DNA from: Candidatus Uhrbacteria bacterium
Lineage (GTDB): Bacteria; Patescibacteriota; Patescibacteriia; 2-12-FULL-60-25
DNA: 52,452 bases
Assembly (NCBI GenBank): GCA_008363075.1
Contig: RHKK01000010.1
Location: 1-52,452, forward strand
Direction of reading: 5' to 3'
In this document: piece after piece, positions 2,560 through 52,371 of the stretch
Numbering within the stretch: the stretch's first letter is position 1
Layout: every line of letters starts with the position of its first letter
Position numbers and translations under genes: made by a program
The notes under the pieces: generated by a model
What the model saw: the letters and a program-made list of their open reading frames with translations, nothing else
Databases searched by the model: none
What the model was told of the DNA's origin: nothing

Positions 2560-3171
2560 TTATTTTTTCAACTTATACGCGCGCATGCGTACGCCGCTCA
2601 TCGACAAGGGCAGGCGTTGGAACGCATACCGTTTGGAGGTACACGCCTTTTTTGCCGCTTCGGTGAGCAGGATCTCGCCACGTTCCGCCGTGTCTTCCCC
2701 GAGTTTCGACGCGAGGTTCATTTCATTTCCGTACAAGTCGTCGCAAAAGAGAAGGACGGGGCCGTGTCCGATGCCGATCGCGACGTGTACGTCGCTCGCG
2801 TCGTCCGTCAGGAGATTCGCCACGTCCAGGTCATGTTGGATCTCGAGCGAGGCCGCGATCGCCGCATCCGGGTTCGGGAACACCGCAAAGCAGTTGTCCG
2901 CCTCGTACTTGACGACGGCGCCCTTGTGCCGTTCCACGATCGGCCGGGTGACGCGCTGCATCTTGTGGATCATGGCCAGATAGTGGATAAGGCCGTATCG
3001 CTGTACGGTCCGTGAAAACCCGGACATGTCCAGGACGAAAATCGTTCGGATTTTCTCGAATTGCTTGTTGATGCGCCGATCGATCTGCACGGCGCGTTCC
3101 GGGTGCTCGATGCGTTCGGCGAGAATCTTGTGGAAATCGTGGCAAGAGGGGAGCGTGGCGTGGCGTTTCAT
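2560..3171 (-). CDS. Class III adenylate/guanylate cyclase-like protein
   Basis: 203 residues. The catalytic domain fills residues about 43-200. Metal ligands are present: D48 in FVLDMSGFS and D92 in VKYEADNCFAVF. Substrate-side K88 is present, and the DDLYG stretch at 144-148 precedes the MNLASK motif, where the transition-state Asn (N152) is kept but the usual Arg four residues later is Lys (K156). Such enzymes make cAMP or cGMP from ATP or GTP; with the Arg-to-Lys change and a non-canonical EADN, activity is uncertain. No sensor or membrane domain is attached, and cyclases are unusual in reduced genomes. The predicted transcription start lies next to the ATG, so the mRNA may be leaderless. 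Confidence 0.85.
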   Translation of the reverse strand: MKRHATLPSCHDFHKILAERIEHPERAVQIDRRINKQFEKIRTIFVLDMSGFSRTVQRYGLIHYLAMIHKMQRVTRPIVERHKGAVVKYEADNCFAVFPNPDAAIAASLEIQHDLDVANLLTDDASDVHVAIGIGHGPVLLFCDDLYGNEMNLASKLGEDTAERGEILLTEAAKKACTSKRYAFQRLPLSMSGVRMRAYKLKK

Positions 3172-3327: not shown

Positions 3328-3597
3328 ATGCCCACGAAGTTGTTCGTCGGAGGCATCCCGTACCGCACGTCGGACGAGGAGCTCCGGCAGCATTTCTCCC
3401 AGGCCGGCGAAGTGCTCTCGGTGTACATTCCCATGGACCGTGAGACGGGCCGCCCGCGTGGCTTCGCGTTCGTCGAGATGACCGACGACGCCGCGGCTGA
3501 CAAAGCGATCTCCATGTTCGATGGTTCGGACATGGGTGGCCGCCGCATCGCCGTGAACAAGGCCCGCCCGATGGAGAATCGCGCCCCCCAGGCGTAA
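3328..3597 (+). CDS. RNA-binding protein, single RRM domain
   Basis: 89 residues forming one RNA recognition motif. RNP2 is LFVGGI (5-10) and RNP1 is RGFAFVEM (44-51), with the aromatic residues that stack on single-stranded RNA in place. Small RRM proteins of this kind occur in cyanobacteria and many reduced bacteria, often as cold-responsive RNA chaperones. The start is the ATG opening MPTKLFVGG; the upstream in-frame extension has no RRM character. A GNRA-loop hairpin lies just before the start, where an RRM protein could in principle control its own mRNA; that is speculation. A strong terminator follows directly. Confidence 0.92.
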   Translation: MPTKLFVGGIPYRTSDEELRQHFSQAGEVLSVYIPMDRETGRPRGFAFVEMTDDAAADKAISMFDGSDMGGRRIAVNKARPMENRAPQA

Positions 3598-3645: not shown

Positions 3646-3680
3646 TTGACAGACACGTTGAAATAGGGAACGTGGTAGAA
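3646..3680 (+). promoter_or_regulatory. TTGACAGA-N13-GGAACGTGGTA box upstream of the tRNA-like element
   Basis: TTGACAGA at 3646-3653, then 13 nt, then GGAACGTGGTA. The same two blocks at identical spacing precede the DUF559 gene on the other strand near 52371-52341. Read as a promoter, the hexamer 17 nt after TTGACA is AACGTG, not a normal -10. Confidence 0.45.
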
Positions 3681-3685
3681 GGCGG

Positions 3686-3754
3686 GCCGACAGCATGGTT
3701 GCTCATCCAGACTTGGTAATCTTGGATGATGGGGTTCGATTCCCCACGTCGGCT
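3686..3754 (+). tRNA. Non-canonical tRNA-Thr(GGT)-like element, possibly a pseudogene
   Basis: The 3' half is a textbook tRNA: T-arm TGGGG-TTCGATT-CCCCA (3730-3746), then an acceptor strand GTCGGC (3748-3753) pairing with GCCGAC (3686-3691). The middle arm keeps CATCC...TTGGTAA...GGATG of tRNA-Thr(GGT), but four extra bases sit on each side of the loop, the D-arm shrinks to AGC-ATGGTT-GCT and the variable loop to one base. The 3' end is TCCG, not TCCA, although the tRNA-Pro in this window encodes CCA. It could be a degenerate tRNA or a tRNA mimic. The arm is perfectly complementary to the 5' part of the next transcript (3802-3819). Confidence 0.5.
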
Positions 3755-3767
3755 CCGCAACGCGCGC

Positions 3768-3796
3768 TTGACAGGGAACGTTCCACGATCTATTCT
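3768..3796 (+). promoter_or_regulatory. Small RNA promoter
   Basis: TTGACA (3768-3773), exactly 17 nt, TATTCT (3791-3796), among the best sigma70-type promoters in the window. Start expected near 3803. Confidence 0.75.
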
Positions 3797-3802
3797 TGAA
3801 AA

Positions 3803-3866
3803 AGATTACCAAGTCTGGAGCACCATGTTCATCAAACAAAGCGCCCGACACCCGTCGGGTGTTTTG
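3803..3866 (+). ncRNA. Candidate small RNA complementary to the tRNA-like anticodon arm
   Basis: A unit of about 64 nt between a strong promoter and a terminator-like hairpin. Bases 3802-3819 are the exact reverse complement of 3706-3723, the extended anticodon arm of the tRNA-like element just upstream. The rest is unstructured up to the terminator. An ATG at 3824 opens a frame that runs through the hairpin without family resemblance, so I treat the unit as RNA. Pairing would sequester the arm, but whether it does so is unknown. Confidence 0.5.
3844..3866 (+). terminator. Small RNA terminator
   Basis: CCCGAC/GTCGGG or the overlapping ACACCC/GGGTGT stem (3844-3862), followed by TTTTG. Confidence 0.6.
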
Positions 3867-3896
3867 TATTGGATAAAAAGAACGCGTCGAAACGCG

Positions 3897-52335: not shown

Positions 52336-52340
52336 GTATT

Positions 52341-52371
52341 ACCACGTTCCAAAAATATTCCGATCTGTCAA
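52341..52371 (-). promoter_or_regulatory. TTGACAGA-N13-GGAACGTGGTA box upstream of DUF559
   Basis: Same blocks and spacing as 3646-3677, here 6 nt before the DUF559 ATG. Confidence 0.45.

Follow-up and report, generated by a model that had tools for sequence, protein, structure and literature searches.

Organization of the locus

The window analyzed here, a stretch of 52,452 nucleotides from a Candidatus Uhrbacteria bacterium, carries two segments, at positions 3706-3723 and 3802-3819, that are 100% complementary to each other over 18 nt and have 78 nt between them. No other 18-nt inverted repeat with a gap of 20 to 300 nt occurs in the whole window, and the longest comparable repeat in 20 Markov-1 random windows was 11 to 14 nt. 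The perfect complementarity to which an earlier note on this DNA had drawn attention is thus confirmed as real and not due to chance. Judged from relatives, it is part of a conserved two-RNA module predicted to consist of a tRNA-like RNA, which we call the TLS, and an antisense small RNA (sRNA).

The module lies on the plus strand. A putative TLS promoter (3646-3681) has TTGACA at 3646-3651, a spacer of 17 nt, AACGTG at 3669-3674, and GTA, with a predicted +1 at 3682. The 77-nt TLS (3682-3758) scores 91 bits with a covariance model that gives ordinary tRNAs <37 bits, and its hairpin arm at 3706-3723, perfectly complementary to the sRNA, includes an 8-nt loop, CTTGGTAA, at 3712-3719. The sRNA promoter, TTGACA-17-TATTCT, spans 3768-3796 (TTGACA at 3768-3773 and TATTCT at 3791-3796), and an intrinsic terminator hairpin lies at about 3836-3867. 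The sRNA itself is predicted to be ~65 nt long (3803-3867), with a 5′ end at ~3803 that we place from the -10 element and the terminator; relatives have the same layout. The promoter match alone is weak evidence, as 2 were seen versus 2.3 expected in 9 kb, but the cassette recurs in relatives, in agreement with the proposal of the earlier note that the sRNA is a unit with its own promoter and terminator on the same strand.

The sRNA faces the TLS with two consecutive segments. The first (3802-3819) is complementary to the loop and the 5′ strand of the long TLS hairpin, and the second (3820-3828, GCACCATG...) pairs with the D hairpin of the TLS, CATGGTTGC, in the RNAduplex prediction for the pair. 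Including the D-arm pairing, the duplex has a predicted energy of about -41 kcal/mol. The pairing with an arm as originally described therefore holds for the 18 nt of the long hairpin and is incomplete, since the D hairpin is paired as well. Directly upstream of the module lies a gene for a single-RRM RNA-binding protein (3328-3597, plus strand), which has a 20-bp perfect terminator hairpin, and a protein with an adenylate/guanylate cyclase catalytic domain is encoded at 2563-3171 on the minus strand.

The TLS is predicted to fold like a tRNA but departs from it in loop and 3′ end

The predicted fold of 3682-3758 is a tRNA-like cruciform, with an acceptor stem (GCCGAC/GTCGGC) prolonged by GCGG/CCGC, a short D hairpin of three pairs (3693-3702), a long "anticodon" hairpin with the 8-nt loop (3704-3728), and a canonical T arm (3730-3746). 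As in tRNAs, nearly all TLS members in the alignment have a T arm with a TTCRANT loop. The other hallmarks differ: instead of a 7-nt anticodon loop, the folds assign 8-nt loops to all 25 TLS (YUNR being present in 23), and instead of a free 3′ CCA on a 7-bp acceptor, a co-varying extension stem pairs the 3′ end. Only some TLS copies carry ACCA. In two of them (L282 in G546 and L278 in G614), it occupies exactly the position it has in a tRNA and pairs with a UGGU-like extension at the 5′ end, which gives the impression that the CCA end is masked on purpose.

The arm that the earlier note had called an anticodon arm is thus a lengthened hairpin whose loop has 8 nt, and the window TLS received neither a tRNA call from ARAGORN nor an Rfam match at gathering level. 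The TLS at C17, a paralogue in the same genome, reached 19.5 bits with the tRNA model RF00005, below its threshold of 29, and 20 further TLS loci had no gathering-level match to any Rfam family. By shape, the best weak Rfam match was mascRNA (RF01684), at 25.5 bits and below the gathering score of 42.5. The possibility of a working tRNA-Thr(GGU) was ruled out by the 8-nt loop and by an ordinary tRNA-Thr(ggt) within a broad normal tRNA set in the genome; the TLS is therefore not a missing tRNA. We saw no conserved reading frame in the TLS, which are structured, 71 to 79 nt long, and differ in length by numbers other than multiples of three.

Covariation argues for the fold. Changes on both sides were found in 21 of the 25 pairs, with 96.5% of cells paired; 0/500 shuffles equaled the real alignment, and slid versions reached ~40 to 50%. 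Because the alignment had been made to fit the model, the result leans towards structure. The best-conserved element of the TLS, the T arm, lies outside the sRNA contact, which suggests a role for the TLS beyond that of a bait for sRNA binding.

Distribution of the module in Patescibacteria

The genome that contains the window (1.1 Mb in 25 contigs) has four modules, three of which, at C8, C17, and C24, were found by DNA search. In these paralogues, the sRNA lies ~42 to 47 nt downstream of the TLS, each with its own promoter and terminator. By eye, a LexA-like gene is found near the C8 copy. A covariance model built from seven TLS separated the members of the window's family (74 to 91 bits) from tRNAs (<37 bits), and searches of the class and the phylum with two models yielded 44 TLS loci in 35 genomes and 21 families, all in one phylum, Patescibacteria; the named records among the matches are Candidatus Uhrbacteria and Patescibacteria. 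With the conservative model, 27 of the 381 sampled genomes of the window's class carry a TLS (~7%), which is a lower bound given the strict filters used. The module is absent from Rfam 15.

When named genomes were scanned with a DNA pattern, the matches were mostly ordinary tRNA genes of the Arthrobacter type, which we reused as a negative control: nearby complementarity was mostly 8 to 11 nt, and 13 in one case, among >100 ordinary tRNA genes, versus 15 to 16 nt in the exact-pattern TLS loci of the window's family. A phage origin was not favored, as there was no match in phage records, and seven pattern matches in viral contigs lacked an antisense partner by the complementarity filter. No neighbor gene is common to the modules across families, and a shared partner gene was rejected for this reason.

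The antisense pairing co-varies and is specific to each module

In the first set, an adjoining sRNA complementary to the TLS loop, the 5′ strand of the hairpin, and usually the D hairpin was found in 24 of 25 loci, and a hold-out set of later loci gave 15/16. The antisense sRNA is thus present in 39 of the 41 inspected TLS loci, with the letters changing on both sides, which is the conserved pairing with compensatory changes that the earlier note had proposed to look for. One of the two others (G054) is on a contig that stops 59 nt downstream of the TLS, inside or just beyond an sRNA-type promoter, leaving 39/40 testable loci with a partner. Loop positions -2 to +6 (nine positions, through the seventh loop base) pair in 24/24 loci and show two to five pair types per position, and D-arm pairing was also predicted by RNAduplex for the C8, C17, C24, G027, G003, G001, G022, G149, and G271 pairs.

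The letters of the pairing differ among the four modules of the window's genome, while the complementarity stays, as in C8 (CCGGACTCGGTAATCC with GGATTACCGAGTCCGG) and C24 (CCGCGCTTGGTATCG with CGATACCAAGCGCGG), and these modules cross-pair poorly. Across loci, the cognate assignment of TLS to sRNA was beaten by 0/20,000 partner permutations, and in a 14 × 14 energy matrix, the cognate sRNA ranked first in 11 and second in 2 cases, the exception being G032. The order pth, TLS, sRNA, dprA is identical in C17 and G027, which belong to different genera within f1; their loops differ, each still matching its own sRNA, which amounts to a compensatory change at an orthologous site.

In four loci (G149a, G149b, G189, and G124), the sRNA is divergent and upstream of the TLS, so that pairing there could occur only in trans. 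This supports the earlier suggestion that the sRNA acts in trans on its tRNA-like neighbor. The only testable locus without an antisense segment is G032 (L058), which keeps the TLS, the sRNA promoter, and the terminator; it is also the only one to fit the pattern of one segment kept without complementarity, which the earlier note had linked to an accidental duplication. In the G032 sRNA, a palindrome, GGAATATATATTCC, replaces the anti-loop segment, and there is a 9-nt match to the acceptor strand of the TLS. Genuine tRNAs were rejected as sRNA targets, as the pairing of the sRNA with tRNAs of its own genome reached -25 at best, versus -41 with the TLS.

A promoter shared with dprA, comM, and recQ

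The TTGACA hexamer or a one-base variant of it precedes nearly every sRNA. The TLS promoters outside the window's family mostly have a good TATAAT-type -10 element ~7 nt upstream of the TLS but lack a clear -35, and those within the family combine a TTGACA -35 element with a nonstandard -10 element, AACGTG or similar. This special promoter is limited to the window's family, where it precedes the TLS by 36 or 37 nt in 9/9 loci. The pattern TTGAC-N17..19-AACGNRGTR has 22 matches in the window's genome (0 for the backwards pattern), and a variant form recurs in five relatives, with 0 or 1 match for the backwards control. Two copies lie in the window, at 3646-3677 and, on the minus strand, at 52340-52371; the loci in the genome are L093 to L114.

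The genes behind this promoter, which often start at the predicted +1 and would be leaderless, encode DprA, a ComM-type Mg-chelatase, RecQ, and a Lamin-Tail-Domain protein. Further families include GIY-YIG, DUF559, NYN, 23S-IVP, and Y1 transposase, and a more distal open reading frame encodes a DNA alkylation repair enzyme. Within the window's family, the TLS has a predicted promoter in common with dprA, comM, and recQ. The same element lies directly upstream of dprA in G018, G010, G002, G020, G022, and G032, indicating that the regulon is independent of the TLS. In our view, the 22-site TTGACA-17-AACGTG-GTA class probably marks a regulon for competence or recombination that is recognized by an alternative sigma factor or an activator. 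A LexA box was not favored as the shared motif, since the element is asymmetric.

A proposed tRNA-shaped effector and its dedicated antisense RNA

We propose, with a probability of roughly 0.7, that the locus encodes a two-RNA control module, in which the stand-alone, tRNA-shaped TLS would be the effector and the sRNA its dedicated antisense RNA. The roles are assigned in this way because the TLS is conserved beyond the paired region, whereas in the sRNA, no segment besides the antisense part and the terminator looks conserved. The sRNA would first contact the exposed 8-nt loop of the TLS as a landing site, then invade the long hairpin and continue through the D hairpin, by which the tRNA-like fold would be destroyed. 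As its promoter is of the ordinary kind, the sRNA would hold the TLS off; the TLS, transcribed from a regulated promoter, would appear once its transcription outruns that of the sRNA and would then act by engaging a partner that recognizes the shape of a tRNA at its T arm and elbow. The conserved fold, the co-varying and module-specific pairing, the trans geometry in four loci, and the promoter asymmetry are all established from genomic sequence; we infer from them that the two RNAs are produced, that the TLS is inactivated when paired, and that it engages a reader of tRNA shape. There are also points against two-RNA control, namely, G032 without its antisense segment, the restriction of the special promoter to one family, and the absence of a common neighbor gene. 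More tentatively, and at somewhat less than even odds, the modules may be phylum-wide RNA-only devices: a tRNA-shaped RNA would target the machinery of translation or tRNA processing and be restrained by its own antisense RNA, and in Candidatus Uhrbacteria the device would have been wired into the DprA/ComM (competence or recombination) regulon.

A specific form of two-RNA control would be an RNA-only (type VIII) toxin-antitoxin system, with the free TLS slowing or stopping growth by tRNA mimicry and the sRNA as the antitoxin. The patchy occurrence (27/381 genomes of the class), the presence of as many as four copies in one genome that cross-pair poorly with each other, the lack of shared neighbors, and the strong sRNA promoter versus the half-site TLS promoters are all consistent with this form. 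However, the pth-TLS-sRNA-dprA order kept across two genera and the use of a regulon promoter for the TLS suggest a regulatory role as much as addiction, and we regard a toxin-antitoxin function as possible but doubtful. It is unlikely that the TLS serves as a decoy or sponge and that the true regulator is the sRNA, acting on mRNAs elsewhere: the strong promoter and the accessible 5′ end of the sRNA would suit such a regulator, but a search of its own genome with up to 3 mismatches gave no further target above the control level except the C8 paralogue, and neither the lack of further conserved sRNA segments nor a TLS fold conserved beyond the paired region would be expected of it.

Action in cis, with both segments in one transcript and a long hairpin controlling processing or termination, draws on the layout of most loci, which place the sRNA after the TLS on the same strand without an intervening terminator. 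Read-through from the TLS would include the sRNA in most genomes, making cis pairing possible, and the joint fold has an energy of -90 kcal/mol (z, -6). Nevertheless, an sRNA promoter of its own at nearly every locus and the opposite orientation in G149a, G149b, G189, and G124 make such action quite unlikely. We find it very unlikely that the TLS-sRNA duplex is itself the product, as a bipartite protein-bound RNA comparable to crRNA-tracrRNA; the long pairing and strict one-to-one co-occurrence fit such a product, but there is no neighboring protein gene in common, pairing would destroy the most elaborate conserved structure, and a variable guide segment outside the pairing was not seen. As for a decayed tRNA gene with an accidental inverted duplication, the TLS does resemble a tRNA (with the weak mascRNA-type match) and the genome has a full tRNA set, but the covariation of both fold and pairing over 21 families refutes it, and its probability is close to nil.

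Relation to known systems

The module proposed here, a tRNA-shaped effector with its antisense RNA, falls under none of the known systems with which we compared it. ColE1 RNAI/RNAII and R1 CopA/CopT control plasmid replication; the antisense RNA recognizes an exposed loop, often a YUNR U-turn, and then zips up. The YUNR loop is shared with the module, but the paired RNAs of those systems come from opposite strands of the same DNA, whereas the antisense gene of the module is a separate neighboring copy. In c4 of phage P1, which acts on an antirepressor mRNA, the antisense segments and their target are adjacent on the same strand as in the module, but there is no tRNA-like fold. The mascRNA/menRNA family (RF01684) likewise forms a tRNA-like cruciform with a reduced D arm; it is eukaryotic and has no antisense partner, and the TLS score is below gathering.

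Among type I toxin-antitoxin systems of Escherichia coli, tisB is SOS-induced through LexA (PMC8145889), and agrA/agrB are antisense-complementary to the SOS-regulated dinQ. In tisB/istR-1 and dinQ/agrB (PMC2826370, PMC3567139), an induced transcript likewise lies beside the gene for a small antisense RNA, with which it pairs. As in type I systems, an antisense RNA that pairs with the target transcript is encoded beside it, but the target there is a toxin mRNA, whereas the TLS is a structured noncoding RNA without a gene for a peptide, including the small hydrophobic peptide typical of type I targets. In the CreT/CreA system, CreA guides Cascade to repress CreT transcription, and CreT toxins act on the tRNA supply (PMC8501985). 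Both partners are small RNAs, as here, but the TLS and sRNA are directly complementary along at least 25 nt. The CreTA antitoxin has CRISPR-repeat-like ends and depends on Cascade. CreT is not known to be tRNA-shaped in the sense of the TLS.

Antisense control as such is already known, but we are not aware of any family that combines a free-standing, tRNA-shaped noncoding RNA with a co-evolving antisense RNA of its own. A literature search on tRNA-like RNAs, antisense RNAs, and Patescibacteria, covering open-licence papers only and hence weak as evidence, found nothing relevant. The hosts are organisms with genomes of about 1 Mb, for which very little regulation is known. If the TLS targets translation or tRNA processing, it would represent a new means of slowing them. 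The dprA/comM link offers a starting point for understanding how DNA uptake or recombination might be regulated in these bacteria. In addition, the many co-varying orthogonal pairs could be used as a natural library of RNA-RNA switches.

Regulon promoters flanking the modules

Five of the nine TLS modules in the window's family are flanked by two copies of the regulon promoter (L126, L135, L144, L110, and L099/L100). In G022, the two copies around the module are identical over ~46 nt, and in G018, there is a single promoter before dprA and no module. This arrangement suggests that recombination between promoter copies may account for the gain and loss of modules. G022 also has several PaaX/Cas2-like winged-helix proteins encoded behind the regulon promoter (L117, L122, L127, and L150).
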